64,000 nt of DNA. Origin: Mesostigma viride. Lineage: Eukaryota; Streptophyta; Mesostigmatophyceae; Mesostigmatales; Mesostigmataceae. Below the pieces are notes generated by a model. It saw only the letters and a program-made list of their open reading frames with translations. It ran no database searches and had not been told where the DNA came from. The stretch is taken from positions 6,066,654-6,130,653 of the forward strand of contig RPFO01000213.1 in the NCBI GenBank assembly GCA_009746045.1, given 5' to 3'. Below, one piece after another: positions 561-63,298 of the stretch. A program made the position numbers and the translations under genes. Position 1 is the first letter of the stretch. Each line of letters starts with the position of its first letter.

Positions 561-997
561 TTACACCCTTGACCGGCTTGCCCTGCACCTGACTGGAATG
601 TTGTCCTGAAGTTTTTTTAGGGGAATCATCCCCCAGCCATCTCTTCTCAGAGCTGTAGCTCTGATAGAAATCCCAGGATTGCCCAGAAAATTCTGACCCA
701 AAATCACAGGGCCATCATAGTCCTCTAGGACAAGGAAGGTCACATCCACACCATGACAGGGGCAGTAACCTCTCCCAACACCCTTAGATGCGTCCTACCA
801 CTGAAATCAGACACCCAGGGGCAACTTGGTTCTCCGACCAGCAGTTTCCTGTATGCTGAGGTCCCATGACAGAAACCTGTGGCATTGGTATCTATCTCCA
901 TGGCAGCTGCCTCAGGTTCATCCAACTGGACAAGCTTGGACACCTTAGGCTCCTTCTTGGCTCTTTGCAAAGCCTGTACAATATCTGATAGACGCAC
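561..997 (-). pseudogene. Retropepsin-like aspartic protease domain, element 1
   Basis: Two overlapping frames (997-740 and 749-561) together give a clan AA aspartic protease pattern: MEIDTNA at the active-site position, VSDFSGRTHLRVLGEV in the middle, and the closing PVILGQNFL motif. The usual DTG/DSG triad is DTN here. A frameshift at about 745 separates the halves. The domain sits between integrase (upstream) and RT (downstream), the same unusual place as in elements 2 and 3. The N-terminal segment LQRAKKEPKVSKL is nearly the same as in element 3. Confidence 0.75.
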
Positions 998-1140
998 ACC
1001 CCTAGGCCTGGTGTCGGGCCGTCCCGGAGGTGCACCTGTCCGCCTGCTTGCCCAACCACCGTATGTGAAGGTACCCCAGGGGCCGGGCCAGGGTCACCCT
1101 GAGGGCTCGATACAGCTGTAGCACCCTGATCAGGAAGCTC

Positions 1141-2461
1141 TCACGTCACCCCGCCTTGTACACCAGCGGGCACCTGGAAGAGGTCTCCTTGATTACCTCC
1201 CCGGGACGGATCTTTGACCCAGGACAGACGGTGTACTGCTTGGGAGCCATCAATGGCCACCCAGCACTTATGGCCAGCGGCTTCTACTCGGGTCACCACC
1301 CCATCATGCCAGCTGCCACGTTTCCCTGGAAAGCTTGGTTCATTCCACACAACAACCTGTTGTCCAACGTTAGGTTCTAGGACACTCCAGCCCTTGTCTT
1401 TCTGCCTCAGCTTGAGGAACTTGGCCTCTAGCTTCTCCTTCCATGCCTGCTCAGCACCAGCTGGCAGCATCCTGGTATGCAGCATAAGAGGATTGATGGC
1501 AATGTCACCAAAGAACATGGGAGTCCTGAGGTTCAGCCTATCCTCCACAGAACGTAGCCATGCAGATGTCACAATGGCAGATGACGTCCTTGGAATCCTC
1601 TCCACCAGCAGCACAGTCTTGATCTCTTGGATGGCTCTCTCCACCACCCCTTGCTGGCCGTGGCTCTCCCTGGGTGTAATCAGCAACTCTGGAAACTCTG
1701 GCAGGTTCTCACAGCACTCAAACTGAATGTCACACTGCAACAACTCCAACCCAGGGTACCTGCTCCTTGTCAACTTCAGAGCAGCAATCAATGTAGGCTT
1801 CTCCATGTCAGGCAGGATTTCTAGGGTCTTGTACTTGGTATAATATCTGTCCACTGCCACCAGCAGCTTCAAACCCCTGATTCTCTGAATATCTACCTGC
1901 ACATGGCCTGGCTGCAAAATAGGAGTCCTGGCATGAGACTGCTTGGGCTTTCTAGCAACTAGCCTGCACTTGCAAGCTTGAGCAACCTGTTGGCAGATGG
2001 AGTACAACTCACTTCCTCCCAGCCGTCTAGCAACTTGCAAAGACTGCATGAGCTGCATGGCCAAACATGGTATGCAACCTTGAGGCAATGTCATACAAGA
2101 GAGAAAACCTTTTATTGTCATTATTAGCACTCAAGGTATGTACAGATCCCTTATGTACAGGAGGCACCAGGGTCGTGCCTGTCAGACTGTCTCCAGCCCT
2201 ATCCTCATCCTGACCATCCTGTGCCAGTCCTGCACGGTCAGAATGCTTCTGAGATCCACCTGGGTCCACATCACCAGGTCCTACCTCAGGCTCAGCACCG
2301 CCATGGCGGGCACGTTGGCGAGTAACCACTGCAGCTACAGCTGGCATACTCTCTGTGGTAACCAAGCTTGCCCCATCGTGTCCAATAGGCTCTTTCATTA
2401 GAGCATGGGGCTGCCCCTCACTGCCGTCACTAGCAGCTATATTACACACCCCTGGGGGCAC
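1141..2461 (-). pseudogene. Integrase of copia-like element 1
   Basis: The N-terminal part (2461-2027) ends with a GAG-pre-integrase-like helix (LYDIASRLHTMFGHA). After a frameshift near 2050-2100 the main frame (2130-1141) continues with CKC, completing an HHCC-type zinc site. The catalytic core shows VQVDIQRIRG (first Asp), LQCDIQFE (second Asp) and HGQQGVVERAIQE (Glu), the D,D-E triad of rve integrases. The C-terminal part has a conserved WNEPSFPGKRGSW block that elements 2 and 3 also carry in related form. Integrase inserts the cDNA copy into the genome. Here it is broken by a frameshift and so inactive. Confidence 0.82.
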
Positions 2462-6711: not shown

Positions 6712-7107
6712 CTTGTGCACTGTGCTTGCTAGTCCTGAGCAACCTAAGAGGTATGCTCAGTAATAACACCCCCGGTACAGTATTCACTACCTGTACAGCG
6801 CCCAGCTCCTATACAGTAGGTCTGCCATACAGGCACAGTGACCACAGAGCACAGTCCACAGTGACTATTGCATCTGCACCTAGAAGTCCAGGACTAAGCC
6901 TGCGGTACCAACAGACCACAGGTTAAGGTTCCTATTTCCTGCGTACGACGTATTAATCCAATACCGTCATAGGTACAGCACCTAATTCCTGTCAGCCCAG
7001 GAATTACTGTCGACCCCATATGTCGTCGGCAAATATTCACGTCCGACTTAGAAGAACAGCCGGCTCGCGCTCGCGCGCGACCGGGAAGTCGGAACGCCAT
7101 AACTTTC

Positions 7108-8909
7108 TTGATACTTGTCGGAATGAACTCGTTCCGGTGCCGCTGGAATCGCAGAGATATGCCGAATCAGGATCACGCCAATGCGCTTGGCGTTAACTCA
7201 ATCATTTCAGAAATCCAGGATGAACAAGGCACACACACGGCCACAACCCCCATTCTAGAAAGTGGACATCGTTTCTACACCTCGCTGTTCCAAAATGAAC
7301 CCAACCCCGAAGCCGACGCGGCCATAGCAAAAATTTTACAAGCTATCCCACGCCGCCTCACACTTGCGCAACAACACCAACTAGACCAAACCCCCTCCAT
7401 GGAGGAGGCTACTAATGCCATGCAAAACATCCGGACCGGTAGTGCCCCAGGGGTGGATGGGCTTCCCATCGAGTTTTGGAAAACTTTTTGGTCCCTTTTA
7501 CACGTAGATTTCTATCAATGCATACTACTAGAAATCTGGCAACATGGACAAATTACGGGTCAATGGGCCGAAACAGCCCTCATTTTATTGTTCAAAAAGG
7601 GTGACAAAACACAGTGGAAAAATTACCGGCCAATACGCCTCCTTACGGTTGCGTACAAAATCATAAGCAAGATAATTCAGCAAAGGCTCTACTCTGTTCT
7701 CGACTGCCTTATAGGCCCGGAGCAAGTAGGCTTCCGTGCTAACCTCCATATCAACGATAGCATCACCCTCATAATGGACATAGTAGAGAAGGCATGGCGC
7801 GACGACATTGCTGGCTTTATCCTCTTCTGGGACTTTGAAAAAGCGTTTGACCGCATGTGCTGGGCATACCTCCGACACATATTGATCGGCTTAGGGTTTG
7901 GCCCACGCATCCTAACGGTCATCATGGGAATGATCAAATCGCTAACCTGGTACATCCTTATCAACGGTCATAAATCTGCACTTGGCCACAGCTCAAGATC
8001 CCTCCCCCAAGGAGATTGTATGTCCCCCATCTTGTTCCTACTGGCACACGCAGGATTGTTTTGGCTCCACCAGCACGACCCTCGTCTGCAGGGCTTCCCG
8101 CTTGCAGGCAGTGCCAAAGGTATTGTACAGATAGCCTATGTGGATGACACCACCAATGTTTGCATCTCTCTACAGGAAGTGAATGCTGTCTTGGAAAATA
8201 TCAACACGTACTCTGCATGTGGCCTCACAACAACGTTGTAATGTGCAAAAGTCCACGGGACTGCACATCGGCAAACCCAACCCATCTCGGATAAACCCCT
8301 CTCACCTGGCCATGACATGGGTCAAACCAGGTGAACACCATCTTTTGCACAATTGCCCCATTGGCTGCACGCCAGAGGGACGTTTGGCTGAACATCGTGC
8401 GTTTTTATATGACGAAACCAACCACGTGGGCAAACTTGCACGAGTGCTCCTCACGGCAGGGCGGTGGGGTGGCGTCCAGCGGATGAGCTTACGAGGAAAA
8501 GCACTAATCGTCAACCAACTCTTGTTCTCCAAGGTTTTATACTACTGTCTGGCACACCCTCCCAACGATCATACCATACAGCTTATCCAACGCATCGGCA
8601 GCAATTTTGTTTGGAAACAGAAAGGTTTGATATCTCACACGGTACATGGTTGGATCAGCCGGGATATGTCCTTTATGTCATGGTTGCACGGTGGTCTAGG
8701 GCTACACAACATACAATGGCGCTTGTGGTCGATGTATGCTAAACAAGTGATCAGCGTGTACATGGAAGTGAACACGCACCCTGGCTGCCTGTTGGCAAAA
8801 GAGTCTCTCTCCGCTATTTACACCCATGCTAATGGCACATCATGGCACCTTGACGCTGGAGTACTTGGCTGCACACTGATATCATACAAGGGGCTCCCCT
8901 GGTACTGGT
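7108..8909 (+). pseudogene. LINE reverse transcriptase, 5' part
   Basis: The first frame (to 8241) has the ordered RT motifs of non-LTR elements: GSAPGVDGLPIEFWK, NYRPIRLLTVAYKIISK, GPEQVGF, LFWDFEKAFDRM (catalytic Asp), SLPQGDCMSPILF and IAYVDDTTNV (the YxDD box). After a frameshift at about 8225 a second frame (8183-8911) continues the thumb region (RLAEHRAFLYDETNH, MSLRGKALIVNQLLFSK). The coding sequence stops where the LTR of element 2 begins. Target-primed reverse transcription would be its role; this copy is inactive. Confidence 0.9.
8905..8909. repeat. Left target-site duplication of element 2 (CTGGT)
   Basis: CTGGT directly precedes the LTR start AGTTAG at 8910 and recurs at 17372-17376 directly after the 3' LTR end CCAACT. 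Five bases is typical for LTR-retrotransposon integrases. Confidence 0.85.
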
Positions 8910-9361
8910 AGTTAGATGAGATGCTTAGGCTGACACACGGATTTCCGGCCTGCGCGCCGCGTATTGCCTACCGCGGCTGAGCGGGACACCTCAGTACAGT
9001 ACGGCAGGGTGTACGGTACTGAGGTGTCATGTGGACCGATGTGCGGTTAGTGCCAGACTGTTCCTAGGTGCTAGCTCGACCCGCCAGGTCCGGTGTAGCC
9101 GGGCCTGACGGGCCGAGTCTTAGCTGGTTGCTAGTGACGTGGTCGCATGGCATTGCAGTGTACAGTTGTCCACTGGTGTGTGCTGCAGGTAGCACCGCCA
9201 TAGGCATATAGGCGTAGCACTGGGGAGTGCCGCAGCACCCGAGTTTGCCCAGTTCCATTCTGAGCCTCAGCTTCATCGCTCTCTCATTGTATTATTGTAA
9301 TACAATCATCATTCGCTCTCAGCTTTCGCAGTTGTTCGTCGTCCCTAGTCTCCATCCAACT
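8910..9361 (+). repeat. 5' LTR of element 2
   Basis: 452 bp, ends AGTT...AACT as short inverted repeats instead of the common TG...CA. The first 339 bases match the 3' LTR base for base by eye; all differences (about ten substitutions and small indels) fall in the last 113 bases. It contains a perfect 13-bp hairpin and near its end an ATTGTATTAT/ATAATACAAT-type palindrome. Confidence 0.92.
8985..9028 (+). promoter_or_regulatory. Perfect 13-bp inverted repeat in U3 of element 2 LTR
   Basis: GACACCTCAGTAC at 8985-8997 pairs perfectly with GTACTGAGGTGTC at 9016-9028 around an 18-base loop. The same structure is in the 3' LTR at about 16992-17035. It could be a protein-binding site or an RNA hairpin; function is inference. 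Confidence 0.45.
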
Positions 9362-9406: not shown

Positions 9407-10947
9407 ATGGCTTCCAACAACGGCAACAACGGCAACAACAAGGGGAAGGCGCCTGCCAGGCGCACCTCACCCCGCCTTTCGCCGGAGGGCACGCCCTCCA
9501 CCACCGATGCGAGGGTGACGCCCAACGTCACCTTCCGCACGGTGGTCGCTGACCAACCCAGGCGTCGGGGCCCGCAGGTGGGGCCCGGCGCCCGGGGGAT
9601 GGCGAGCGGGCGGCCGTTTGCCACTGGCGGTTCGTCCGCCATGGCACCTGGGGGGCAGGTCCCCCGGGCACGACGTTCCCCGTCGCAGGTGACGGGGGTC
9701 GTGAGCGGAGTGATTCCTCCGAGGAGGATGGCGAGGTGCCGCCTGCGAGGCCTCGGCCTTCGCTTGAGCTTTCGTCGCAGACACCTGCGACGTCTGGCAA
9801 CCTTTCCGTGGGCCGACAGATGGCCACCATGGACATTGACCGGTATGGGGAACATGTTCCGCCCCCGGTCGCGTTCGGGCGCCCACCCCATTTTCTCCCC
9901 CTTGGGGAGGACGACATCCCGGCGTTCATTTCGGTGAACGGCCGGATCTTACTCAACGTTTTCAGATGCTTCCAGATGAGGAGATGCACGCGATAGAGGT
10001 TCATCGGGTGCACGCTGATCGAGGGGCGCTTAGGATGCAGTCTCTGGTTCAGGTGGCAGTTTGGCTGTACTGTTTCGCCAATCGGCCGCGGCACAACCCC
10101 GGCACTGTTGATCAGTGGGCGTCCAGGCAGCGCCAGAGAGAGGCGCTGCGCGTGGTCGCCCGACCGAGATCCGCTGACTCCGTTGCCGCGTGGCCCCAAG
10201 TCACGCCAGTTGGCTGGGGCCCGGATAGGCGTGAGGCGGCTGCGATGCCGCCTGCGACGGGCGCGGGGCGGCAGACGCCCCCAACACGCCCATGGGTGGT
10301 GAAGCCACCCAGGACCCTCTGGCAGGTCAGAGGGTCCAACCTCAGCCGCAGGCTCCCCCGCCCAGCGTGGGGGGCCAGGTGGCTGAGGAGGCCACCGGGG
10401 TCGCAGGGACCCCGGCGGCGACACAAGCGCCCGGGGTCGCAGGGACCCCGGCAGCGACGCCGGCGCCTCCGGCGCTGGCGGGGGATGCAGCCCCCATGGA
10501 GGGTGTCACGGGCACCTCCAGCGGCTCTGGGGGGCAGGCCCCCTCTAGTCGCAACAAGGACAAGTCCCTGGCAGGGCCGGAGGGGCCCCAGGGTCCCACC
10601 GCAGCTGGGCAGCAACCAGCACTGCTGGAGGGCGACCTGCAAGGTCGCGACTTCATCACCCTGGTGATGAGGCCGTGTGGCGTGCCATACAGACAGCCAC
10701 AGCCTCCTTCCGTGGGCTGGCCGACAGGAGCCAGCAGATGCACGTCGCGGAGGCGGGCAGCCTGGTGTGTGCAATCATCACGCACATCCTGGGCCTGCCC
10801 AACCTCCAAGAGGGCACACGCAGGGTGTGCGACGACCTGCTGCCTGCCCTGCAGGCTCTCCTCTCAGGGAGGAGGGTGCAGGGCAGCAGGGTGCGTCTGG
10901 TGCGTTTGCTGGAGCTCCTGCACAACGCCATCCTGAGGGGCGGGTAG
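9407..10947 (+). pseudogene. ORF upstream of gag, element 2 (unknown function)
   Basis: Starts at ATG 9407, 46 bases after the 5' LTR, with an Asn/Gly-rich start (MASNNGNNGNNKGK) and a basic Pro/Arg-rich segment. Frame changes near 9650, 9980 and 10280 are needed to follow sensible protein sequence: an acidic Ser/Glu segment (RERSDSSEEDGEVPP), a folded-looking stretch (GEDDIPAFISVNGRILLNVF), a Pro/Ala-rich linker, and a helical C-terminus (VCDDLLPALQALLSG, VRLLELLHNAIL) ending at 10947. No domain recognised. It lies where elements 1 and 3 also have an extra ORF. Frame changes in homopolymer runs point to decay or sequencing errors. Confidence 0.5.
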
Positions 10948-11096
10948 GTGGCTAACTCTGCCTACCTGGTTGCATCATGATCTTACTAACCCTACTGACG
11001 ATGAGTGTCCCTCTCTCCCACCTTCCATGATTGGGAGGAGGCCCGCAGCAGGAGGCGGGAAGTGACACACACTCACACCCCCACCAGCCCACCCCT

Positions 11097-12054
11097 ATGT
11101 TGTCTAACCCTCCTACACAGCCCATGTTTGCCCATCCTGCTCAGCTCACTCAAGTAGCACTTCCCTCTCAGCAGGTCTCTCCTGTGAATGCTGCAGCAGC
11201 AACACCATCTTCTCCCTCTCCCCCTGCATCCCCCTCTAGGTTGCCCACTTACAATGAAAACCGTCCTGTGGATAGGATTAATGTCAGGGGGCTGCCTGAG
11301 GGGTATACTAGGGAGCAGGGGAATCATGCACTTCTCTCTCTGCAGCTGGCTAGGGAGGAACTGAATGTCAAGAATTGGTTTGGATCTCTCATGCAGGGGG
11401 ATTTCTACCATCAGTCTTCTTCCCAGATTCAGAATCTCATTCTTGTCTTCCAGCGTAGGTATCCCAAGTGGCAGGACACGCAGGCTAGGACAGTTTGGGA
11501 GGCTTTCATGAAGGAGCTAACTGACCTCCTCTCCACCCCCTCATCTGTGGATATCTATGGGGCATTCAGGTGGGTAGAGGAATACAGGGTCACATCAGTG
11601 GACTATGTGGCTGAGACAAAGAAATATGAGCTAGCCATCAAAGCACGTCCTGATGTTCAGCAGCTAGATCACAAGTTCTTGCTGCGTTCCTTCCTTGAGA
11701 AACTCAAACTTGACAAAAACACCTACGCTATGCTTGCCACAGGAATGGCAAAGTACTGGGAGGACATGAAGGAGGCATTGGATTATATCAAGCTGGCCTT
11801 GGCTCCCCTTAGCCAGGGGGCCATGGGCACCTCTGTAAAGAGGGTCAGGGGGGAAGAGAGGGAGGAGGAGGATAGGGAGAGGGAAGACAGGAGCAAGAGA
11901 CCTGTCACTATGGCAGAAGTCAAGTCCCTGCTGGGACAAATGTTTAAGGGCAAGGGCAAGGGCAAGGGCAAGGGCAAGGGCAGGGGCTGGGGCAAGGGCA
12001 AGGGTAAGGGGCAGTCTCCCTCCAAGGGGGGCAGCTCCAGCAACAACAACAACA

Positions 12055-12114
<60 letters not shown>

Positions 12115-12535
12115 GAAGCAGGACAAGGAGGACAAGTCTTCTCAGCGGTGCACCCGCTGTGGCATGAAGTACCACCTGCGGCCCACCTGCCGCAAGAACG
12201 TGGACGAGCTGGGGCATTTGGACGTCCTGTGCCACAAGTGCCACGGGCCGCCCCACGGTGACCCCAAGGACTGCAAGCGGCCTCCTTACGGCAAGAAGTG
12301 TGAGTCTCCCTCTCATGCTGGCTTGAGTGTGCCTGCTTCACCTCTTTCATCTGCATGCCCCACTGTCAGAGCAGTGAGCAGTTCTGGAAAGGTGCTACAG
12401 CTGGTTTCAGAAGATTATGTCTCTAAACCAACCTTCACATCTATGGTTCCCAAGGTGTGCAGAGTGTCCCCCAGAGGATGCTCAGATCAGTTTTCAGGAG
12501 CTTGCTTTGCAGTTGCATTTCCTTTATGGGCATGA
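11097..12535 (+). pseudogene. Gag with two zinc knuckles, element 2 (frameshifted)
   Basis: First ATG in frame is 11097. A Pro/Ser-rich start is followed by a helical capsid-like region (about 11290-11800), a charged Glu/Arg segment, and a (GK)n basic stretch. A CAA/AAC microsatellite at 12040-12115 contains one extra base, shifting to a Thr repeat and a stop at 12167. In the other frame the protein continues through CTRCGMKYHLRPTC (C-x2-C-x4-H-x4-C) and CHKCHGPPHGDPKDC (C-x2-C-x4-H-x5-C) to a stop at 12535, overlapping the integrase ORF by about 120 bases in another frame. The overlap would suit a frameshift-expressed Pol; that is inference. Confidence 0.8.
12040..12115 (+). repeat. CAA/AAC trinucleotide repeat in gag
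   Basis: About 24 AAC/CAA units broken by one AAAA run at about 12053-12057, which shifts the gag frame just before the zinc knuckles. Confidence 0.85.
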
Positions 12536-14045
12536 AGTGAGTGCAGAGGTGGTGGCAGCAGCAATAGGGGGGGCAGCACTCAGACGTGCATGCCAGGTGG
12601 TCAGATCCCACTGCCAGCATTGTCAGTTCAATGCACCCAAACCCCCTAAGTGGCATGTAGCTACCCCACCTAAGAGCAAGGGCAGGGTGGTAGGAGATGT
12701 CTTTCATATCAAAGGACAATCTTACTTGGCACTTAAAGATGCATGGTCAAGGTACACAACCATTGAACCATTACCTGGAATGGACAAGACACAGTTGCTC
12801 AGGGCTCTCTTGATTGCTCAGGCCAGGTACTACCCTGTGGAGGCATTGTTACTGGATCAGCAGTTCACGTGTCTTGCCAATGAACCAGGGTGTGAGGCTA
12901 TTGATCTGGCTGGGCTAGAAGATCATGAGAGGCAAGGCATTATTGAAAGGGCCATCAGGTCCATTAAAACCCTTGTAGCCAAAGAAGATGGCAATCTGCT
13001 GGCTGACAGTGGGTCATATGCTGACAGAGCTCTGTGGTCCACCAGGTTGTGCCAAGTCCTCAACAGGAGGCCACTCATGAAAACCCCACAAGGGGTGGTC
13101 ATTACACCAGATGGATTGCATGCAGGCATTTATCCACCTGAGGTACTAGCCCTCTACAACGCACAGCGAGCACAGACAGCTAGCAGGTTAGCTGTCAAGG
13201 ATGCAAAGCATCCACGTCCCACCTTCAGAGAAGGGGATCAGGTCCTATTCTACAAGGAGTCGGGACTAGGCAAGGTGGGTACCTGGCATGGGCCAGCCAC
13301 CATCCTAAAGTTTAACACCACTGGCAGGACAGTGTTAGTTAAACACAATGACACGGGAAAAATTCACAGGTGTTCACCTCACAGGATGAAATTGTATTTT
13401 CCAACTGTGTCAGACGTGGCAGAGGAGGAAGAGCTGTTGGCCGACAGCCCTGTACAGTTGCCTGGCATCCCAGCGTTGCCCAGTGAGTGGTTGTTTGGAA
13501 CACCCACTGGTGAGTGTGAGAGCCACACCCACTGTGACACCCAGGTCACCCTTGATGATTGCAGGCAGTCACTGCAGGATTGGCCCCCTGCAGCAGAGGG
13601 TCACATTGGCAAAACAGGTGATCAGCAACCTATCACCTCTACAAGTGTGAACATAGCTCAGCCACTAGCTGCACCTTCCAAACGCAGCCTAGCAGACGCT
13701 GTTCGCATTTTACAAGCAGCTCATAGAGCCAAAGCTCAAACTGCTGCAGGATCAGCTAAGGTGGGGAAGGTTGGGCAGAATGACAATAGCCCATTTATGG
13801 TTGCAGTGGACACACAAGCCCAGGTCAGCATTATCAGTGCCCTGGCTGTGCCCCATTTGCCTTTGGAACCTTCACCCTGGCACCATGTGGCTGATTTCTC
13901 AGGGCAGTCATCCCTCAAGGTATTAGGTCAGGTCATGTTGACTATACTCGGTATCCCCACTCCTTTTCAGGTATTGGAAGGTTATAAAGGGAATGCTTTG
14001 TTGGGGGATCCTTTTCTCTGTTACCCTGGTGTTCATCTCCAGTGA
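12417..14045 (+). CDS. Integrase plus retropepsin-like domain, element 2 Pol
   Basis: A 542-codon uninterrupted ORF. Residues about 30-70 carry an HHCC-type zinc site (LHFLYGHEVS then CQHCQ). The rve core follows: GDVFHIKGQSYL (Asp), LLLDQQFT (Asp), ERQGIIERAIRSIK (Glu). A C-terminal region (REGDQVLFYKESGLGKVGTW) resembles the DNA-binding tail. After a linker, residues about 455-540 form a retropepsin-like fold: FMVAVDTQAQVSII, LKVLGQVML, NALLGDPFL. Integrase and protease are thus in reverse order to Ty1/copia, inside a single frame, so rearrangement by assembly is unlikely. The active-site triad is DTQ instead of DTG. Confidence 0.88.
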   Translation: MSLNQPSHLWFPRCAECPPEDAQISFQELALQLHFLYGHEVSAEVVAAAIGGAALRRACQVVRSHCQHCQFNAPKPPKWHVATPPKSKGRVVGDVFHIKGQSYLALKDAWSRYTTIEPLPGMDKTQLLRALLIAQARYYPVEALLLDQQFTCLANEPGCEAIDLAGLEDHERQGIIERAIRSIKTLVAKEDGNLLADSGSYADRALWSTRLCQVLNRRPLMKTPQGVVITPDGLHAGIYPPEVLALYNAQRAQTASRLAVKDAKHPRPTFREGDQVLFYKESGLGKVGTWHGPATILKFNTTGRTVLVKHNDTGKIHRCSPHRMKLYFPTVSDVAEEEELLADSPVQLPGIPALPSEWLFGTPTGECESHTHCDTQVTLDDCRQSLQDWPPAAEGHIGKTGDQQPITSTSVNIAQPLAAPSKRSLADAVRILQAAHRAKAQTAAGSAKVGKVGQNDNSPFMVAVDTQAQVSIISALAVPHLPLEPSPWHHVADFSGQSSLKVLGQVMLTILGIPTPFQVLEGYKGNALLGDPFLCYPGVHLQ

Positions 14046-14496
14046 TAGACTATCCATCCAGGACATGGGTGGTGTTGATCTGAATCATTTCAAAATTTCT
14101 CTTGAAAAACTTCTTAACACCAACATTGCTTCTGTAAAATTTGCTACACCCAAGTATGCCCCAGGGCAAGAACCCTGTGTGGCAGACTGGTTCACAACCA
14201 AAAACTTCATCCCAACTCATTTGGATTGGGCAAGCATGATGTGGCTAAAATGTCTCCTCTTTCTTATGAACAGATAGAGCAAGACTGTCGCACACACATA
14301 GGATTCCTAAAATGGGTGGAGGCCTTTAACAAGGCCAGGGAAGAATGGGTAGTGCCAGATCCTCTTAGTCCTTCTCATACTCCCCTGTCACACCTATTGA
14401 CAAAAAGCCTGCAGGGTGCAAGCACTTGCGCCTGAAGTTTGTGTGTAAACATAAGCCAGCAGCAGATGGGTCAGTCATTTTCATGCTAGACCTTGT
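14046..14496 (+). pseudogene. Decayed linker and RT N-terminus, element 2
   Basis: Between the Pol1 stop and the intact RT frame, three short frames carry the linker and first RT block (for example HARPCVTEFKG spanning about 14485-14515), broken by small indels and stops. This breaks Pol of this copy. Confidence 0.6.
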
Positions 14497-15852
14497 GTGA
14501 CAGAGTTCAAGGGCACCACTGATCTGACAGAGGCAGAGTTGTACACGCCAGGCATTCAGCAAACATCCCTAAAAATCTTGCTGTCTGTCTTTGTGGGTCA
14601 TCTCAATGATGGGGATGACTATATGTGTAAGGCTACAGACATTAAAAGGGCTTTCCTGAAAGGCTCACCTGAGATAGCACAACAAGTGTGGCATGGTCAG
14701 GTGTATGTAGTCTCCACTCCCAGAGTTTGGGCAAAACACATCCCTCAGCAGTACCTGAAAGCTAACATAGGTGTTGAAGGGCTGCAATCAGCTCCTCGCA
14801 TTTTCAGGATGTCAGCTCAGGCTGTGTTTGAAAAGTTAGGGGCTAGATATGATGACATAGACCCTTGCTTCTTTGTGGTCCCACACCCTCATGGCATTCT
14901 CACCTTTGTGTGGCATGGGGATGATCAGCTGATTGCTGGGCCAAGGCGTGCTGTGGATGATTTTATTCAACAAGTGTCACAGCATTTTGAGATTGGCAAG
15001 CAAGTAGAGCTGGGCACCACTGCCATAAAATTTTGTGGCACAATGTTACAACTCCAGCAGCATCAAAACCAGTGGGTGTGTGCACTCTACTCTCCCAATG
15101 ATTACATGCACAGCTGCTTGGAGGTTTTGCAAACAAAAATCAAACCTGGAGCCTGTCCTACCATTAGAGGCAAGCTGGGGTGGTTGTGCTCAACGTGTGC
15201 ACCTCACCTGGCTGTGGTTAGCAGAGTTGATGATGATGTCTTGATGCAAGTAGGTCACAAAGCCATCACCAAAACTCTCCAGGAAGGCCCTCCCCTTATC
15301 TTGCACTCCTTGGATCTCCACAAAACCATTCACATCCAAGCTATGATGGATAGTTCCATGGAGTCCAGGCAGATTACCAAGTTGCAGGCAAGGGAGTCAG
15401 GCTTGTATTTTGTGCAGAATGATGATGCACCCTTGTCTCTCATTTCATGGTACAGCCGGTTGCATAGACGCAAGGCTGTCAGCAGCAATGCTGCTGAGTG
15501 CAGGGCAGTGGTGTCAGCAGTGCTTCATGCCAGGTACTTGAATCATGTGCTGGTTTGGTTGCAGATGCAAGCAGGCAGCAATGCTGGGGTGGTGGCACAC
15601 TTGCTCACTGACAGTCAGTCAGTCCTCAGTTTCCTTGCTAACCCCTATGCTGTCCACACTGATCTTGACTGGGTGGTCCTGAAACAGGAGTCCACCTACT
15701 GGGAGTCCACCCGTCACGTGGAGGACAAACACAACGCTGCTGATGCACTCACTAAAGTGCCTCAGCAGGCAGCTGAACAATATCAGCTGTTGTACCACTT
15801 GATGAACCCCTATGGCAAGCAGGCAACCCTGCCCCATAGGGGGGACGCCTAG
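14497..15852 (+). CDS. Reverse transcriptase and RNase H, element 2
   Basis: 452 codons open, 5' end lost to frameshifts (first codon is GTG, not a real start). RT: TEFKGTTDLTEAELYTPG, motif A ATDIKRAFLKG (catalytic Asp), then LQSAPRIFRMSAQ, and motif C FVWHGDDQLIAG, where copia elements usually have YVDD. RNase H: AMMDSSMESR (Asp), SSNAAECRAV (Glu), LLTDSQSVLSF (Asp) and the closing RHVEDKHNAADALTKV (His/Asp), all four catalytic positions present. Ends 1065 bases before the 3' LTR. Confidence 0.9.
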   Translation: MTEFKGTTDLTEAELYTPGIQQTSLKILLSVFVGHLNDGDDYMCKATDIKRAFLKGSPEIAQQVWHGQVYVVSTPRVWAKHIPQQYLKANIGVEGLQSAPRIFRMSAQAVFEKLGARYDDIDPCFFVVPHPHGILTFVWHGDDQLIAGPRRAVDDFIQQVSQHFEIGKQVELGTTAIKFCGTMLQLQQHQNQWVCALYSPNDYMHSCLEVLQTKIKPGACPTIRGKLGWLCSTCAPHLAVVSRVDDDVLMQVGHKAITKTLQEGPPLILHSLDLHKTIHIQAMMDSSMESRQITKLQARESGLYFVQNDDAPLSLISWYSRLHRRKAVSSNAAECRAVVSAVLHARYLNHVLVWLQMQAGSNAGVVAHLLTDSQSVLSFLANPYAVHTDLDWVVLKQESTYWESTRHVEDKHNAADALTKVPQQAAEQYQLLYHLMNPYGKQATLPHRGDA

Positions 15853-16916: not shown

Positions 16917-17371
16917 AGTTAGATGAGATGCTTAGGCTGACACACGGATTTCCGGCCTGCGCGCCGCGTATTGCCTACCGCGGCTGAGCGGGACACCTCA
17001 GTACAGTACGGCAGGGTGTACGGTACTGAGGTGTCATGTGGACCGATGTGCGGTTAGTGCCAGACTGTTCCTAGGTGCTAGCTCGACCCGCCAGGTCCGG
17101 TGTAGCCGGGCCTGACGGGCCGAGTCTTAGCTGGTTGCTAGTGACGTGGTCGCATGGCATTGCAGTGTACAGTTGTCCACTGGTGTGTGCTGCAGGTAGC
17201 ACCGCCATAGGCATATAGGCGTAGCACTGGGGAGTGCCGCAGCACCCGAGTTTGCACAGTTCCATTCTGAGCTCTCAGCTTCCATCGCTCTCGTATTGTA
17301 TTATTGTAATACAATCACCATTCGCTCTCAGCTTTCGTCGTTGTTCGTCGTCCCTAGTTCTCCATCCAACT
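16917..17371 (+). repeat. 3' LTR of element 2
   Basis: 455 bp, AGTTAG...CCAACT, identical to the 5' LTR over the first 339 bases and diverged over the rest. It is followed directly by CTGGT, the second target duplication. Confidence 0.92.
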
Positions 17372-18854
17372 CTGGTCGCGCCTATCTATGGTTAGGTTAT
17401 CACAAGCTCAAACCTGGGCGCCTCGTTTTTCCCACCACTCGTGAGGAGGTTGCACGACAGATTCTTTATTTCAATGATTTGATCGTGGACAATGCGCGCA
17501 AGCCCTTGGGCACGTTACATGGGCACAACCCTTATGCTGGCTTCCTGTGCGCATCACCCCCTGTTCTGAGAGTGCTCGATCTCTACGCGTGGCAGGGGGA
17601 CAGATATCGGTTACGGGCATACACTGAAGTTAATGCTTGGGTGCAAAACATGCCATCGCTACACGCTTGGAACACCCTCATCCAGGCCATCCCAGCTACA
17701 TGGCATGCTCTGATGATGGCCCCCGGCAAGGCCCTGCAACCGGGTGATTGGATCAGTTTTTACCCAGACGGGATCACATCCACATGCAAAGGTCTGGTCC
17801 GGGGAGTGTTGCCTCCGGCCGGAATTCAAGTCCAAGTGGCCGACACCCTTCCAGGCCACAATGGTTGCCTCAATCAGTTGGCGACATTATGTGTCTGTCT
17901 TCCAGCCCACCAATGTCACCGTATCCGGATGGTCCCGTGGTTAGTATCAAGGTCCTGCATGTTCCAGCCGGACCCCACGACCCCGGCGGAGGCCATCACT
18001 TGGTTACACGTAGGCAATACGAGATTGGATACTTTACCATTGGACCCCCTGGAGTTTGGCTGGACCTTGACCAAGGGGATGTCTAGGATTAGCAAATGTC
18101 TTTACGAGTACACGGCAGAATGGGGTTATGACATTTTATTGCACGAGAACCATAAGCTCCACCCTGGCCGCCCACGATGGGGCTTTCAATGGCCTGGGTA
18201 CAGTTGGATTAAACTTATCACCGTGGCGGTCGATCACCCTTTGGTGGACCGCAGAGCGACCGACATTCAACATCTTTTACTGCACAGAGCCATTGGGGTA
18301 AACGCGACCCTCAGCAGCCGGTTTCACCACGATGCGACATGCCTGTGCACCTTCCCTTCGGAAACAATTGAGCACCGCTTTCTCTACTGCCAAGTGAGCG
18401 GGGTGTGGCAATGGTTGTTTAACGTATGGTCCGCATGGACCGCGCTACCACATTCCACACTAACGCTATCCGTGCGTTGTATCATATTCGGTATGGCGGG
18501 GACCCCGGGGAGGAGCTATCCAACAGTCAACTAGCCTGGGTATGGCTCCGAACTAATATGCTATACGCGATCTGGACTATCCGGAACGAGACGGTTTTCA
18601 AAGTGCGGCACGAATACACCAAAGCCGCCGTGGTGAGGCGGTTTATCTTTCTCTGGAACTCAGCAATGCGTCGCGCTTGGCTCTTGGCGCAAGAACAATA
18701 CAAGGTGTGGGACCCCGGGCCCAACAATGACAAGCCCAGCCCCTTGGAGCTCTTCCATGCTCTCCTGGGACGCAACAGGGTGTTTACCTGCATTCCTCAC
18801 GGTGACCTTACGCGCGTCACTTGGCTCCCCTGGTCACACAATGCTCCTTTCTAA
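17372..18854 (+). pseudogene. LINE ORF2 C-terminal part with zinc-binding RT-associated motif
   Basis: Two overlapping frames (to 18534 and from 18426 to 18854). The first continues the LINE polyprotein and has the motif CLCTFPSETIEHRFLYC, the C-x-C...H-x4-C pattern of the zf-RVT domain found after RT in plant and algal LINEs. The second frame (LYAIWTIRNETVFKVRH...) is the usual conserved tail with a W-x-x-R-N pattern. A frameshift at about 18430 separates them. Confidence 0.82.
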
Positions 18855-18960: not shown

Positions 18961-20928
18961 GGAAAACAACAACAGATGACGCGGCCGGCGGCACTGAACA
19001 ATCCGTCCGTCCGGCTTCGTCAGTATGGTATTGGTCTACGATGCAATCAGTCAGTGATCCCACGCCGCTGACTGACTACGATGCATTAGTCCTTGTGGGT
19101 TCAGTCCACGCACAGGTGGGTAGAACGAACATGACTACAGTACAGTACTGTACTGTAACAAGACGACGCTCGCCATAATTGCCCGTGACTGGAAAATATT
19201 TGACGACACAGGCAGACGATCTGGTCTACAGAGACGTTGACGACAGGCCGAACAGCTACGACTCGAAAGACTCGCAGTTGATGTCCGCACAACGTATCTA
19301 GTCCTGTTACAGCTGTTGCAGCGGTTTCGTTGCTGCACGAGTGCCCGAACACTAACGTTGGTCGTCCCTAACGTTGGTTGCGGAAACCCCGGCTAAAGCG
19401 CAACCATACCGACGGCAACACCTCGGATGGTGAGATGCCGCAAATTGGTCAGGCCCAATTTTGGGATAGCGCACCCAAGCCGTACGTGACTGGCTGGTGT
19501 GCCCTATCTTACTCGTGCTTGTAGTGCATCCCACGATGGAGACTTGCCTACGTCATCCGGGATAATTGACTAAAGATGCCAGCACGTGCAAAACGAATCG
19601 AAGGTTTTGTGGCGAGGTAGTCCTATATATCTGAGCAGCTCACGGGGCACCCTATTTTTCGGGGGGTTCCACATTTGTGTAGAAATTTTCACGCAAGCCA
19701 ACTCTCAGGATGCTAACTGACAGATTGCCCGGCTAACGGCACACCGTTTGGGCGACATGAGCGAAACCTCGCCTTTATCCAGTGACCTGCTGCCGCGGCC
19801 CAGCGTAAGCTACAGTGGCAGGTCCTACGAAGGCAGGGAGGACACAATCTCTAAAGTTAAAAGCTTTCTGCGCGCATCAGGTCCGTCTACATTCCCCTGC
19901 ACATTATGGCGTGACGGGTATACGGGTGTAATGCAAGTTCTTGAAGAGGCACCGCACTTGTGGCAGCGGGTAAAGGGATGAATGGTGTCCAGGTTTGCTT
20001 AGAGGCAGAGTGTCAGCTTTAGCCAGCGCACTGGTCTGTTTAGGCCAACTAGCGGATCCTGTAAAGTTCCACCCCTAATACATTATCGAAGCAACCAATA
20101 TGTATCCACGCTATATTACAGATCTAATGTCCCTTCTTGCAAGCCCTGCTGTATAAAAAATTTTCGCCAGCCCTTCCCACTTTCCATTCCTAAGCCGTCA
20201 ACTGCAATCCTGTCGAGCAGACCCGTCAAGTTAACCCCTTGGTTAATCCTGTCAATCAATCCAGTTAACCAACGTAGTTTAATTCATGTCCGTTGCTTCC
20301 CGTCCAGTAGATGCTGTGAAGCCAAGCATCAAGCAGATCCTGTGATGCCGTTGCGTTCTGTCCTGGTTCTGTCAATATTTTTCCGCCGGTCCATTTTTCC
20401 CCGTCCCTCACTTCCTTTCAGTCACTTCCTGGCCATGTCCACCCCCCTTCGTCGGTTTTTCCTTCCCGTTTTCTTTGCGCCCGTCATCCTTCCCGCCCGC
20501 CAGCTGCCTACTTCCAGCCCAACGTTTCAGTATTTCCACCTGCGTTCCACATTTTGCAAATCCGAACTTACAGTTAGGTCCCTCTCCTTCTTGACGTGGC
20601 AGAAGGTGCAGCGGGCATGTCCCAAATAAATTAGTACATCATCCTTCGTGTGGTACCCAGTAGATAGCAAACGTCTTGGCTTGCCTTGGCCTTATCTCTT
20701 GTTGAGCAGATGAGAACTAGAATGTCCTGGATTGGCCCTATGATCTTGTCTCTTGTTGAGCAGATGACAAATAGAATGTCCTTGGTTAGCGCTTTTCTTC
20801 CTACTACAGTGTATATGGGGTCCTCTCAGTTGAAGTGCCTTGAGGATGGCCACCTTCCTTTCTTCAAGCATGTCCTATGTAGCCCCATACCCCGGTGGTC
20901 TTAATTTGTGTTCACTTCCTGGCCGTTC
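18961..20928. other. Intergenic, no gene recognised
   Basis: Only short ORFs without recognisable domains (for example 19748-19981 plus, MGDMSETSPLSSDLL). A short palindromic ACAGTACAGTACTGTACTGT lies at about 19138-19157, and a two-copy repeat of about 60 bp (CTTGTTGAGCAGATGA...AGAATGTCC) at about 20695-20785. Confidence 0.5.
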
Positions 20929-22090
20929 CTCCCCCCCCCCCCTCCTGCCTCCCCCCCTCCCCCGTCTCCCCCTCTCCCCCTCTCCCCCTCTCCCCCTCTC
21001 CCCTCTCCCCTCTCCCCTCTCCCCCTCTCCCCCTCTCCCCTCTCCCCCTCTCCCCTCTCCCCTCTCCCCCTCTCCCCCTCTCCCCCTCTCCCCTCTCCCC
21101 TCTCCCCCTCTCCCCTCTCCCCCTCTCCCCCTCTCCCCCTCTCCCCTCTCCCCCTCTCCCCCTCTCCCCTCTCCCCTCTCCCCTCTCCCCCTCTCCCCTC
21201 TCCCCCTCTCCCCTCTCCCCTCTCCCCCTCTCCCCTCGCCCCTCGCCCCTCGCCCCTCGCCCCCTCGCCCCCTCGCCCTCGCCCCTCGCCCCCTCGCCCC
21301 TCGCCCCCTCGCCCCTCGCCCCTCGCCCCCTCGCCTCGCGCCCTCGCGCCCTCGCGCCCTCGCGCCCTCGCGCCCTCGCCCCTCGCCCCTCGCCCCCCGC
21401 CCCCCCGCCCTCTCGCCCCCTCGCCCCTCGCCCCTCGCCCCCTCGCCCCCCTCTCCCTTCCTCCCCTGCTCCCCTGCTCCCCGCTCCACTGCTCCCCCGC
21501 TCCCCTTCTCCCCGGCTCCCCCGCTCCCCGGCTCCCCCGCTCCCCCGCTCCCCGGCTCCCCGGCGCCCGGCCCCCGGCCCCCGGCCCCCGGCCCCCGGCC
21601 CCCGGCCCCTGGCCCCCGGCCCCCCGGCCCCCGGCCCCCCGGCCCCCCGGCCCCCGGCCCCCGGCCCCCGGCCCCCCCCCCCGGCCCCCGGCCCCCATGC
21701 CCCCGGGCCCCGGGCCCCCCCCGGCCCCCCAGCCCCCGGCCCCCGGCCGCCCAGCCCCCTGCCCCCGACCGCTGGCCCCCTGGCCCCCGGCTCCCCGGCT
21801 CCCCTGCTCCCCTGCCCCCCTGCTCCCCTGCTCCCCTGCTCCCCTGCTCCCCTGCTCCCCTGCTCCCCTGCTCCCCTGCTCCCCTGCTCCCCTGCTCCCC
21901 TGCTCCCCTGCTCCCCTGCTCCCCTGCTCCCCTGCTCCCCTGCTCCCCTGCTCCCCTGCTCCCCTGCTCCCCTGCTCCCCTGCTCCCCTGCTCCCCTGCT
22001 CCCCTGCTCCCCTGCTCCCCTGCTCCCCTGCTTCCCTGCTCCCTTGCTTCCCTGTTTCCCTGCCTCTTTCCTTCCCTCCTGCGCTCCTCC
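20929..22090. repeat. C-rich satellite mosaic, 1.16 kb
   Basis: Successive blocks: CCCCTCTC-type (about 20960-21235), CCCCTCGCC-type (21236-21460), CCCCCGG-type (21540-21790), then about 32 copies of the 8-mer CCCCTGCT (about 21800-22060). All frames on both strands stay open because of composition, giving false ORFs of over 400 codons. The minus strand is a dense run of G tracts able to form G-quadruplexes. Confidence 0.92.
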
Positions 22091-22439
22091 CTTCCTTCCC
22101 TTCTCCCCTCGTCCATTGTTCCCCCCTTGCCTCTTGTCCCATTCTCGCAACCCTTTTACTGGCCGGTGAACTCAATATCTACTCTTTCCCCTACACACGC
22201 GCGCCCTCCTGCCCTCCTGCCCTCCTGCCCTCCCCCCCCGCCACCACCACCACCACCACCACCACTGTGCCGTGTGCCAGAGTATGAGCAGAATGCGACC
22301 AAGGGCAGCCAGGAGCGGCAGATATCGCGGCTCGCCCAGCCAAAGTTCGCTGCGTCAGAGCCACACGATTGGAGCGCGGACCGGTGGAAGCTTAAGCGCG
22401 CGGGGTGAGCTGTGCCCTGCCTCAGCTGCCTTGTGGCTT

Positions 22440-22640: not shown

Positions 22641-22854
22641 TTGCCCTCCACTTGGCCTCGGACAATCAGCTTACCTAGCTTCCTTTGCTGGTTTACGGGG
22701 TCCATGAAACAGGGGGGTTGGGGCGTTGGAAGGGGAAGACGGTTCATGCCCATGTTCATGTGTGTGCGCCTGTGTCTGCATATGCGTGTATTTGTATATG
22801 CATGTGCATGTATGGGCGGGCGCATGGTGTAGGACAAAGGCGATGGGCATTTGC

Positions 22855-59151: not shown

Positions 59152-59311
59152 AACGTCGGCCATTTTTCCAGTACTCGTCGGCATTTTGTCGGCATTTCGA
59201 CGGCATTTCGCGGCGGCGTCGACACCGGTGCAGGCGGCATTACTCGACAGTTTTGTACATATTTTGTTTTGCTGCTTTGCTCCAGTGTTCTAGAACAGCT
59301 TGTAGTGCATC

Positions 59312-60436
59312 ATGGCAGACGGGCGACGTAGCAAGGGCGCCCCAGCCAGTGGGAATAATGGGGGTGCGGGTAGTGGGACAGCTCACGTAGATGACGTGGG
59401 TGTCACCGGTGAAATAACCAATATCCCTCTCAACAATAATAATACACAAGCTGTGCATGGATTTGACCTCACCACCCAGGGTCTATTAATTGTAAATCAG
59501 CTACAACCTGTGACCTCAGACTCCAAGCCTAAGCAGGCTGAAGAGTTTGTAGAAGGATTGGAAGGGTTTCCTAGAATGTACGGGGGTACCAACTACTATC
59601 AGATCTGGATAGGAAGTAGCACGTTTGGTGGAAAGTGTACTGACCAGATCAAGGACCTGACCAGGGAGTGCAAGAAGGCCAACAAGGCCTGGGCATTATA
59701 TGTAGCTGAGCTGAAGGAGCTGCTTGAAGACCAGCGCAAGAAGGTCGGCATCCATTGGCAAGACAAGTATCAAGGGTGGGAGGTCAAGGGGGATCTCATC
59801 CAGAATTTCCTTAACTGTTGCAAAATGGTTGAGGAAGGCAGGGCCCACGGTTTCAACGTGGCAGACAATATAGCCCTGACCAACTGGTTGAAGGCCTAGG
59901 TCTCTGGGCTGGATAAGGCCACACGTGGATCTCTCAAGGTCATGTGTGCTCCTCACTCCACCATGATGAAGGCCTACAAGGTCATCATCAAGCAAGCCCT
60001 CGAAGCTGAGGAGCTGTTTGAGGGGGGGGTGCCAGCTGTGAAGGCAACCCATGCAGGTGGGCGTGCCCAGGGGGGCTCCAAAGCGTCTGAGGCTGACAGA
60101 AGCCAAGGAGGGCGTAGGGGCAACCACAACAAGCGCAAGGGCAGCCGTTCCCCCGACCCTGACGGGAGGTCACACTCCAAGTCGGTGTTCAGGCGGGTGG
60201 GTGGCAAGCCCAAGCAGGGCAACGCATCTGACAACGGGGGTGGTGGCCAGGGCAAGTCAAAAATCCAGTGCTACCTGTGCAAGGGGTGGGGGCACATCAA
60301 GAAGGAGTGTCCCTCCTTGAAGAAGACCCAAGGCCAGGGCAGCAACAAGAATAACAACAACAAAAACAACAAGAACAAGTCCCAGGCAGGCCAGCCTTCT
60401 AAGGGCAGTCAACAAGAAGAAAACAAGGAGCAGTGA
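59312..60436 (+). pseudogene. Gag with CCHC zinc knuckle, element 3 (one in-frame TAG)
   Basis: Starts ATG 59312 (MADGRRSKGAP). A helical capsid-like part runs to an amber TAG at 59897-59899; the same frame then continues without other stops to 60436 with a basic region and one knuckle CYLCKGWGHIKKEC (C-x2-C-x4-H-x4-C), ending in an Asn/Lys-rich tail. Corresponding residues continue across this point in element 1 gag, so the TAG is most simply a point mutation. Readthrough is a less likely option. Confidence 0.82.
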
Positions 60437-60638: not shown

Positions 60639-61962
60639 GTGCTACGCACGAGGGTACGTGGACCTCTCATTTTGAGAGAAACCAATGTACAACCACAGAG
60701 GGGTGTGAAGGCCTCTGGTGGTATGCATGTGGTCCCTGCTGGCGGTCCAGGTGTTGGGCATGAGCAGGGTGACTCAGGCTCTGAGTCAAATATGGATGGA
60801 AGTCAGCATGGTGATGCTGGACAACCTGACAGCACAGTCCTGACTGTGCCAGGGACTGCTTCCTCCGTGTACCAGGAGTTGGGTGCCCAGATCCACAACA
60901 TGTTTGGGCATGCCACTTCTCTGTCAAACAACTTTGCCTTCCGTATGGGCAAGGCACCCCTTCTCAAGGCGTGCCAGCAAGCTGCCTCACGGTGTAAGTG
61001 CCAGTTGTCCTCCAACAAGCCCAGGAAATCACATGCCAAAGCTCTACCTCAGGGCATTGGTGATCTGCAGTGTGATATCCAACACATCAGGGGCATGCAA
61101 CTGTTGGTGTGCGTTGACAGGTACACAAAGTACAAGGTGCTAGAGCATTTACCTTCTATGAAGAACAGGTACTTAATTGCTGGCTGCCCTGCAGAATGTG
61201 AGAGCCAAGTTTCCTACCACAAGGATCCAGGTGGACATGTTGTTTCAGCATCTCAAGGGTGATCCCACCCTTCCTGAGTTGCTGGTTACACCTAGGGAGG
61301 CTCATGGGCAGCAGGGTGCTATAGAGAGGGCAATCCAGGAGGTCAAGAAATTGATCATCTCTGAAGACTGGGTACCCTTGTCTGCACCTGCACTTGTCAG
61401 GAGTGCATGGTTGAGGAACGTGGAGCAGCAGCTGAACAGCAGGGTCAATTTCTACTATGATGGAGTTGTTGTCAGCCCAATGGGTCTATATCATGGCCTG
61501 TGCCCACCACATGTGCTGGAGGGCTGGAAACATGCTGCACATGTCACCTTTGCCAAGCTGAGGGAGAAGGACCGGGGTTGGAAGACGCTGGAGCCAACAG
61601 TGGGTCAGAGAGTATTAGCTTGGAAGGAACCGAGCCTGTATGGCAAACGTGGTAGCTGGAGTCCTGGGGTGGTTACCCAGGTTGATGAAGCTAGCCACGC
61701 ATGCTTGGTCAGCATGGAGGACGAACCAAAGCATGTACACCGGCTGAGTTGGTCATATGTCAAGCCTAACCTGATGAATGAGGGCAGTCAGGCACAAGGC
61801 TCACAGGATCTGCAGGATTTTCAGGTCCCAGGTGACATCACTGACGCAACGACCACATCTGTTGCAGGGGAATCTGTCAGCCCTGGCCAGGTTGCAGAGG
61901 TACTTTTGAACAGGCTGCAAGGTCAACAGCTGGGGAGTCAACTGTCAAGCCCAAGGCTCTAA
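60639..61962 (+). pseudogene. Integrase of copia-like element 3 (frameshifted)
   Basis: The first frame (to 61262) has the HHCC-type site (QIHNMFGHA, then CKC) and the first catalytic Asp (LQCDIQHIRG). After a frameshift at about 61180-61200 the second frame (to 61962) has the second Asp (IQVDMLFQHL), the Glu (HGQQGAIERAIQEV), and the C-terminal WKEPSLYGKRGSW block. The core is close to that of element 1. Confidence 0.83.
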
Positions 61963-61982
61963 CCAAGCCCAGGGGGACTAGT

Positions 61983-62549
61983 TTGGCTGGATTGATTTGG
62001 GCTCTGCAAAGGGCCAAGAAGCAGCCCAAGGTAGCCAAGCTCAGGTGGCATGGCAATCTGGGGCTGGACACTGCCTTAGAAGTAGACACTAATTCTCAGG
62101 TTTCCATCATTGGGACCAGAGCTGCAGCAGGGTACAGCATGTCTGAGCCCAGCTATCAGTTTGTGTCTGACTTCAGTGGCGGGGTACACGTGAAGGTACT
62201 GGGTGAGGTATCTACTCCTATCCTTGGACAGGACACTGCATTTTGTGTCTTGGAGGGCTATCAGGGACCTGCTCTTCTGGGGCAGAATTTCCTATGCCAG
62301 GATGGGGTAGTGATCACGTCCTCTCTCCTGACTAAGGAAGGGGCTGGTCAGGTCCCACTGATTAATTTCAGGACCACTCACCTATCACATGCAGTAACCA
62401 GGTCGGTTACTAGCGTGTGCAAGTGTGCCAGGGGCAGGAGCCCTTGGTTGATGACCTCATATTGCCAGCTGCTAGTCATCCAAGCAGTTTGGGCATTGGT
62501 CCTCACTCACTTGCTGGACACAGCCCTATCAACTACCAAGGCCTGGTGA
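61983..62549 (+). CDS. Retropepsin-like domain, element 3 Pol fragment
   Basis: LQRAKKQPKVAKL is followed by LEVDTNSQVSIIG at the active-site position, FVSDFSGGVHVKVLGEV in the centre, and PALLGQNFL at the end, the full clan AA pattern with DTN in place of DTG. It sits after integrase and before RT. The upstream boundary is a stop after the integrase frame; the frame continues without function past the domain and overlaps the RT frame from 62417. Confidence 0.8.
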   Translation: MAGLIWALQRAKKQPKVAKLRWHGNLGLDTALEVDTNSQVSIIGTRAAAGYSMSEPSYQFVSDFSGGVHVKVLGEVSTPILGQDTAFCVLEGYQGPALLGQNFLCQDGVVITSSLLTKEGAGQVPLINFRTTHLSHAVTRSVTSVCKCARGRSPWLMTSYCQLLVIQAVWALVLTHLLDTALSTTKAW

Positions 62550-63298
62550 AGCTCATGTCCTCTCCCATTATGTGTCCCCAGGTCACACTGGGTCTGATTA
62601 AATCTGGGGAGGACTGGATCTCCAAGAAATGCGTGGAACCTGTCAATGACCTGCCTCCTGCACGGCGTCTACTCAAGCTCAAGTTTGTCATCAAGATGAA
62701 GGAGGTGGACGGGGTCAAGGTACCACATGTCAGGCCAGTGCTGAATGAGTTCAAGGGTACTGGTGAGTGCACTGCTGAGGAGTTGTATACCCCTGGCATG
62801 CTGCATGACACTTGGAGGCTGCTGCTGTGTGTATTTCTAGGCCTTCTCAACAAGGGCTTGGACTATGGCTCAGTGGTGGTAGATTTCAAGAGAGCATTTC
62901 TGGAGGGGGATGCAGATGTGGCACAGGAAAAGTGGGAGGGCAAGACGCCTTTCTATGTTAGGGTGCCTGCTGTATGGAAAAGGGACATTCACACTGAGTT
63001 CCTTAAAATCCTCAAGGGCCTGGAGGGCCTGAGGTCAAGTCCAATAATCTGGAGGGAGACTCTCAACCGTTTCCTGAAGGAGCATTGCAACTTGAAGGTT
63101 TCTCCTGTAGACCTCTGTATGTTTCTGGGGCAATGGGAAGGCCTACCAGTGTATGCTTCGCTGCACGGGGATGACCTGCACCTGCTGGCTCCTACGTCGT
63201 GGCTTAAGCAGTTGATCTCCATCATTAAGTCCAAGTTTCCTCTGGGTAGGGAGCAATGGCAGGTGGAGAATGAATTGTTAATCATCCCACGGTCCTAA
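62417..63298 (+). CDS. Reverse transcriptase, element 3 (C-terminally truncated)
   Basis: HVRPVLNEFKGTG, EELYTPGMLHDTWR, motif A VVVDFKRAFLEG (catalytic Asp), LRSSPIIWRETLNRF, and motif C ASLHGDDLHLL, again HGDD where YVDD is usual. The frame runs about 35 residues past motif C and ends in sequence (IIPRS) unlike element 2, at the junction with the next repeat. RNase H is therefore absent from the window. Confidence 0.86.
   Translation: MQVCQGQEPLVDDLILPAASHPSSLGIGPHSLAGHSPINYQGLVKLMSSPIMCPQVTLGLIKSGEDWISKKCVEPVNDLPPARRLLKLKFVIKMKEVDGVKVPHVRPVLNEFKGTGECTAEELYTPGMLHDTWRLLLCVFLGLLNKGLDYGSVVVDFKRAFLEGDADVAQEKWEGKTPFYVRVPAVWKRDIHTEFLKILKGLEGLRSSPIIWRETLNRFLKEHCNLKVSPVDLCMFLGQWEGLPVYASLHGDDLHLLAPTSWLKQLISIIKSKFPLGREQWQVENELLIIPRS

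Follow-up and report, generated by a model that had tools for sequence, protein, structure and literature searches.

Elements in the window

The window, i.e., the whole stretch of 64,000 nucleotides of Mesostigma viride DNA that was analysed, carries three copia-type retroelements with long terminal repeats (LTRs), which we designate E1, E2, and E3. E2 is flanked by its LTRs and a target-site duplication (TSD). Its features are the following:

8905..8909, + strand: left TSD, 5 bp, CTGGT
8910..9361, + strand: 5' LTR, termini AGTTA...AACT, aligned to the 3' LTR
11031..12167, + strand: gag open frame, no Pfam match above the curated cut-off
12149..12277, + strand: gag zinc-knuckle region with two Cys/His clusters, from translation
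12516..12623, + strand: integrase zinc site HX4HX26CX2C (HHCC), from translation
12696..12947, + strand: integrase D,D-29-E core, from residue spacing (rve E=0.009, below the Pfam cut-off)
13794..14045, + strand: retropepsin-like domain, DTQ at 13809-13817 and LLG at 13998-14006
14455..15852, + strand: reverse transcriptase (RT) and RNase H (RH), HGDD at 14914-14925 (RVT_2 E=4e-7, 30.2 bits, just below the cut-off of 31.6)
16917..17371, + strand: 3' LTR
17372..17376, + strand: right TSD, CTGGT

The original prediction had described an uninterrupted ORF of 542 residues in E2. Translation recovers it exactly as claimed (window:12417-14045) and bears out the order within it, from the HHCC site through the D,D-E core and the integrase tail to the retropepsin-like stretch. 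RT-RNase H had been predicted to follow. It does so in order, but in this copy it sits in another frame, as the reading frame breaks after the protease-like stretch at 14045. The catalytic residues of the integrase are D (12696), D (12855), and E (12945), the second D being separated from the E by 29 residues; the usual spacing is 35. The LTR pair is identical in 446 of 455 alignment columns, 3 of the 455 being gapped. The gag knuckles of the window copy are in a frame other than that of the gag start; in two further E2 copies, L024 and L062, they share the frame of pol.

E1 and E3 were claimed to have the same domain order as E2, and tblastn comparisons among the three elements agree with this. 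The features of E1 are:

1222..2034, - strand: integrase (tblastn from E2, E 3e-26)
618..1024, - strand: retropepsin-like domain, DTN at 892-884 and ILG from 704, frame-broken here and unbroken in the E1 copy L081
75..326, - strand: start of RT (tblastn)

The features of E3 are:

59306..60436, + strand: gag with CCHC knuckle, ending in TGA, broken in the window copy (zf-CCHC E=0.001, below the Pfam cut-off)
60849..61833, + strand: integrase, frame-broken in the window copy (tblastn)
62070..62309, + strand: core of the retropepsin-like domain, DTN at 62085-62093 and LLG at 62274-62282
62414..63295, + strand: linker and RT, HGDD at 63164-63175 (RVT_2 E=1.4e-7, 31.8 bits, above the Pfam cut-off)

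The tblastn matches in E3 span 61863-62309 for the protease-like (PR-like) domain and 62726-63253 for RT. The domain had been predicted to begin at 61983; its place in the order holds, and we correct the start of its core to about 62070. The integrase zinc site ends in C-x-C in E1 and E3, whereas it ends in CX2C in E2. All three families have HGDD in place of the RT motif Y/FxDD (window 14914-14925 and 63164-63175; L081:2952-2963). RVT_2 also matches the E3 copy L061 (E 8e-7) and is not reached at E 0.1 in an E1-family copy. The LTR start AGTTA recurs in L061 (L061:1419 onward).

Other features of the window are a non-LTR-type reverse transcriptase adjoining E2 (6973-8911, RVT_1 E 3e-21), exons of a trehalase gene (49221-51942, PF01204, E down to 1.9e-24), and long simple and minisatellite repeats (20834-23200, 42000-42500, and 46770-47700) with frames of the PSP/GAGEQGSR, poly-G, and WVGG types.

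Families across the genome

The same assembly (440 Mb in 2243 contigs) was searched for further copies. Places 93-100% identical to the query number at least 80 for E2 (best of 7053 candidates), at least 146 for E3 (best of 5383 candidates), and at least 122 for E1 (best of 5660 candidates); the full order was read in one or two unbroken copies of each family, not across all listed places. A related-locus search gave no relatives in viral contigs or genome contigs, and tblastn gave none in phages.

L024 (E2): This copy has one natural open frame that leads from the gag knuckles over HHCC, integrase, PR-like domain, and RT into RNase H, within which the analysed stretch ends.

L061 (E3): An ORF before gag is followed by gag, an in-frame TGA, and a pol frame of 1208 residues with the same order as in the window. 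The LTR pair is identical over 502/502 readable bases.

L081 (E1): The pol frame has 1198 residues and the same order.

Integrase, PR-like domain, and RT share one open frame in these unbroken copies of all three families. Among the 146 listed E3-family places, 39 have the 1208-aa frame and 17 have a frame of 581 aa. The frame is broken just after DTN in 7 of 30 E3-family loci (L031-L060). These observations may reflect either a broken subfamily that has multiplied or a signal for frameshifting. Broken E3-family copies have multiplied too.

Odd domain orders commonly stem from chimeras, according to the accessible part of a plant survey (PMC6317226), and the window copies are broken, as would be expected if misassembly, recombination, or decay had produced the order. 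This has next to no probability and was rejected, as the same order is present in unbroken copies of three diverged families, and the near-identical places run to hundreds, although the order itself was read in few of them. Hence, the order belongs to proliferating elements and not to decay or misassembly. We confirm that the order gag-IN-PR-RT-RH (IN, integrase) is real and common to the three families.

For the pairs E1-E3, E1-E2, and E3-E2, identity is 49%, 37%, and 48% in the PR-like domain, 49%, 30%, and 34% in the integrase, and 64%, 36%, and 36% in RT, respectively. As the PR-like domain is about as conserved among the families as the integrase, it is probably under selection.

Search for a second protease

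The original prediction saw no DTG or DSG between gag and integrase. One DSG does occur there, in a low-complexity acidic stretch of the E3-family pol; it is the sole D[TS]G before the integrase in the scanned frames and is absent from E1. The claim stands in the sense that, in the scanned frames of E1, E2, and E3, no D-[TS]-G was accompanied by an hhG at the distance typical of retropepsins. The scan covered ORF0 (the ORF before gag), gag, and pol of E3 (L061), gag and the pre-integrase stretch (window) and pol (L081) of E1, and two frames of E2 (L062). In the E2 frame, D[TS]G occurs twice, both times within the integrase. The pre-integrase stretches of E3 and E1 are without Pfam matches up to E 10 and 0.1, respectively. 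A true protease between gag knuckle and integrase, which had been named as the finding that would speak against the order, was thus not found in the scanned frames.

The gag-pol junction differs between the families. In the E2 copies L024 and L062, gag and pol form a single continuous frame. In E3, a single in-frame TGA followed by CTG separates gag from pol (L061:4042-4074; window 60415-60460). TGA followed by CTG is a possible readthrough context. Because pol continues in the same frame beyond the gag TGA, it is probably expressed by readthrough in E3. The gag of E1 ends in TGA too and the pol of L081 is in another frame; in E1, pol may be expressed by either readthrough or frameshift.

A canonical protease could also lie elsewhere, in an extra ORF before gag or reached via splicing, and the new order would then be only apparent. 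Unexplained coding sequence does precede gag in E2 and E3, with extra ORFs at L061:1970-2767 (E3 family, 266 residues), window 58324-59151, and window 9407-10000, none of which has an informative Pfam match, and by inspection an intron could be concealed at the gag-pol junction of E2. We nevertheless regard this explanation as very improbable: D[TS]G is absent from ORF0 and gag of E3, from the ORF0 piece of E2, and from gag of E1; neither ORF0 nor gag of E3 has a Pfam match to a protease; and the frame of L024 runs on from gag into integrase without interruption, with a spacer of 80 residues from the last knuckle Cys to the first HHCC His.

Identity of the retropepsin-like domain

The HMM search that had been proposed along with the original prediction matched rve and RVT_2, while its retropepsin match, to PF13975 (gag-asp_proteas), is sub-threshold and was obtained in two of the three families. 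The E values are 0.026 for the E2 piece (L062; profile positions 6-90 of 92) and 0.089 for E1 (14-91 of 92), both far below the Pfam cut-off. The matches are colinear with the PR-like domain and cover nearly the whole profile length in both families. No protease was recognised by Pfam in the complete E2 frame, the window pieces of E3, or a 154-aa piece of E3. NCBIfam gave nothing useful, and PDB sequence searches gave no informative match.

An AF2 model of the E3 domain reached a pLDDT of 84.7 and a pTM of 0.76 with an alignment that included genuine retropepsins: besides the three families, it comprised five genuine clan AA proteases from this assembly, four of them gypsy and one bacterial-looking. 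An earlier model with 3 rows and no genuine proteases had a pLDDT of 38; its target was longer, so it is not a strict control. A bacterial-looking clan AA protease occurs at L065 on G000:C2011, a contig of 1.49 Mb that may be a contaminant or an endosymbiont.

Foldseek against the PDB listed 50 of 559 matches (E up to 10), and all 50 are retropepsin-like with probability 1.00, comprising retroviral proteases and one bacterial retropepsin-like peptidase. The best PDB match has an E value of 1.2e-3, with none below 0.001, and TM-scores of the listed matches are about 0.41-0.57. In the viral library, most Foldseek matches were aspartic proteases or polyproteins of retroviral or caulimoviral origin.

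The direct sequence tests for homology to retropepsins are weak. In a column-shuffle test against the five genuine clan AA proteases, the observed score was reached by 38/1000 (local) and 55/1000 (global) shuffles, and when the DT motif was left out, by 526/1000 and 325/1000, respectively. As controls, five integrase windows were reached by 62 to 229 of 300 shuffles. With hhalign, P was 0.019 over just 23 columns around the DT motif (integrase controls, 0.05 and 0.37). When 212 sequences were searched by hmmsearch with a narrow retropepsin HMM, E2 ranked second, below one shuffle, and E3 fell among the shuffles.

These statistics, and the dependence of the AF2 model on an alignment with genuine retropepsins, would suit a domain that is not a retropepsin at all, namely a small beta-rich linker from the integrase tail to RT with a chance resemblance at two motifs. 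We consider such a linker improbable, as two families match the same Pfam retropepsin family over nearly its whole length and the Foldseek matches are aspartic proteases in the PDB and, for the most part, in the viral library. A retropepsin fold of the PR-like domain is likely, though not proved, as judged from the profile matches and the model.

Active-site triplet

The D-[TS]-G triplet of clan AA retropepsins is absent from the PR-like domain in all three families. The original prediction quoted DTQ, and the motif is present, but the absence of the DTG glycine went unremarked. DTQ occurs in 31/31 loci of the E2 family and DTN in 31/31 loci of the E3 family (together 62/62 with DT[NQ]), counted among the best-scoring loci, so that rarer variants could be missed. 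Both E1 copies read (window and L081) have DTN. In unbroken copies, the three families have in common hydrophobic-D-T-[NQ]-[AS]-Q-V-S and a second motif hhG, which is LLG or ILG with an invariant G. D[TS]GA is present in all 18 clan AA stretches taken from this assembly, a set biased by its selection with PF13975. As DTQ or DTN is found in every copy read, proteolytic activity cannot be assumed. Of the predicted identity as a protease, the fold is thus retained as likely on the basis of the Pfam match and the AF2 model, but not the activity.

Human ERV-K proteases that lack this glycine are a minority and are predicted to be only “potentially active” or “inactive” in the available part of PMC6058741 (Table 4). 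This listing is no proof in either direction for the activity of the PR-like domain.

The main rival to a working enzyme is a conserved pseudoprotease, i.e., a relocated domain that has ceased to cleave and acts between integrase and RT as a module for dimerisation or assembly, with particles maturing via a host protease or without cleavage. DT[NQ] throughout the copies read, D[TS]GA in the clan AA stretches of the same assembly, and the minority status of the glycine-less ERV-K proteases would all fit this reading. Against it, features that a working site would be expected to keep are conserved at 34-49% identity, namely the catalytic Asp and Thr, the A/S that follows the triplet, and the glycine of hhG; in the copies read, only N or Q takes the place of the missing G. 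Overall, loss of cleavage appears somewhat unlikely.

Discussion

Our preferred explanation, which we hold to be slightly more probable than not, is that the elements form a Ty1/copia-type clade whose original protease has disappeared and in which a relocated retropepsin with a modified active site is used instead. The LLG/ILG motif and the position adjoining RT suggest that the copia protease was lost and that a retropepsin of another kind took its place. The ancestral protease on the gag side would have disappeared, and the retropepsin that now lies between integrase and RT would be of the hhG type rather than the copia “ILS” type. This relocated domain may still dimerise and cut the Gag-Pol precursor, with Asn or Gln replacing the active-site Gly. 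Cleavage would then set free both the integrase and RT-RNase H, which flank the domain. A further-reaching proposal, which we put forward tentatively as possible rather than probable, is that of a superfamily-level LTR lineage with a pol order IN-PR-RT-RH undescribed in the literature searched and a working D-T-[N/Q] retropepsin, in which case the clan AA glycine would be replaceable by an amide residue.

Domain order defines the LTR superfamilies, and pipelines drop elements with odd orders. The plant survey, for example, kept 5410 Ty1/copia elements and removed all odd-order cases as likely mispredictions (PMC6317226, in the part available). A proliferated odd-order lineage would mean that genuine diversity can be lost to such a filter and that the place of the protease within pol is not fixed. 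Should the DT[NQ] domain cut, a residue supposedly required in aspartic proteases would turn out to be dispensable; should it not cut, abundant LTR elements seemingly manage without a canonical protease.

The original prediction knew of no described family with this order, and gag-IN-PR-RT-RH was likewise not found in the searches made, which covered openly accessible papers but neither subscription papers nor Repbase. The order is not described in the accessible portions of PMC12440569, PMC8226300, PMC2806351, PMC6058741, PMC2642776, and PMC6317226. Diatom copia elements have the usual order, as far as the available text of PMC2806351 goes.

Troyka: This LTR lineage likewise has termini other than TG...CA but differs by its PR-RT-RH-IN order, 3-bp TSD, CG...CG ends, and animal hosts (PMC12440569, accessible part).

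Ty3/gypsy (Metaviridae): Elements of this type in the same genome (L063/L064) are alike in having PR directly upstream of RT and a second motif of the hhG type. They differ by a DTG protease, the order gag-PR-RT-RH-IN, and another RT type. The PR-RT-RH-IN order is found in none of E1, E2, and E3. Gmr1-like Ty3/gypsy elements have a rearranged pol with integrase before RT, but their order is PR-IN-RT, with the protease first, and their RT is of the gypsy type.

Ty1/copia (Pseudoviridae): The likeness lies in the integrase before RT-RNase H, the RVT_2-type RT, the 5-bp TSD, and the CCHC gag; by eye, we also take the RNase H motifs of our elements to be copia-type. Ty1/copia has its protease between gag and integrase, whereas here the PR-like domain comes after the integrase. 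The RT motif HGDD and the D-29-E integrase set our elements apart as well, and the E2 LTR ends in AGTTA...AACT instead of TG...CA, which is usual but not universal. In the accessible part of PMC2642776, ILS is usual in Ty1/copia proteases and ILG is found in nearly all other clan AA peptidases. Our elements have hhG instead of ILS and DT[NQ] instead of D[TS]G, and thus depart from both motifs of family A11.
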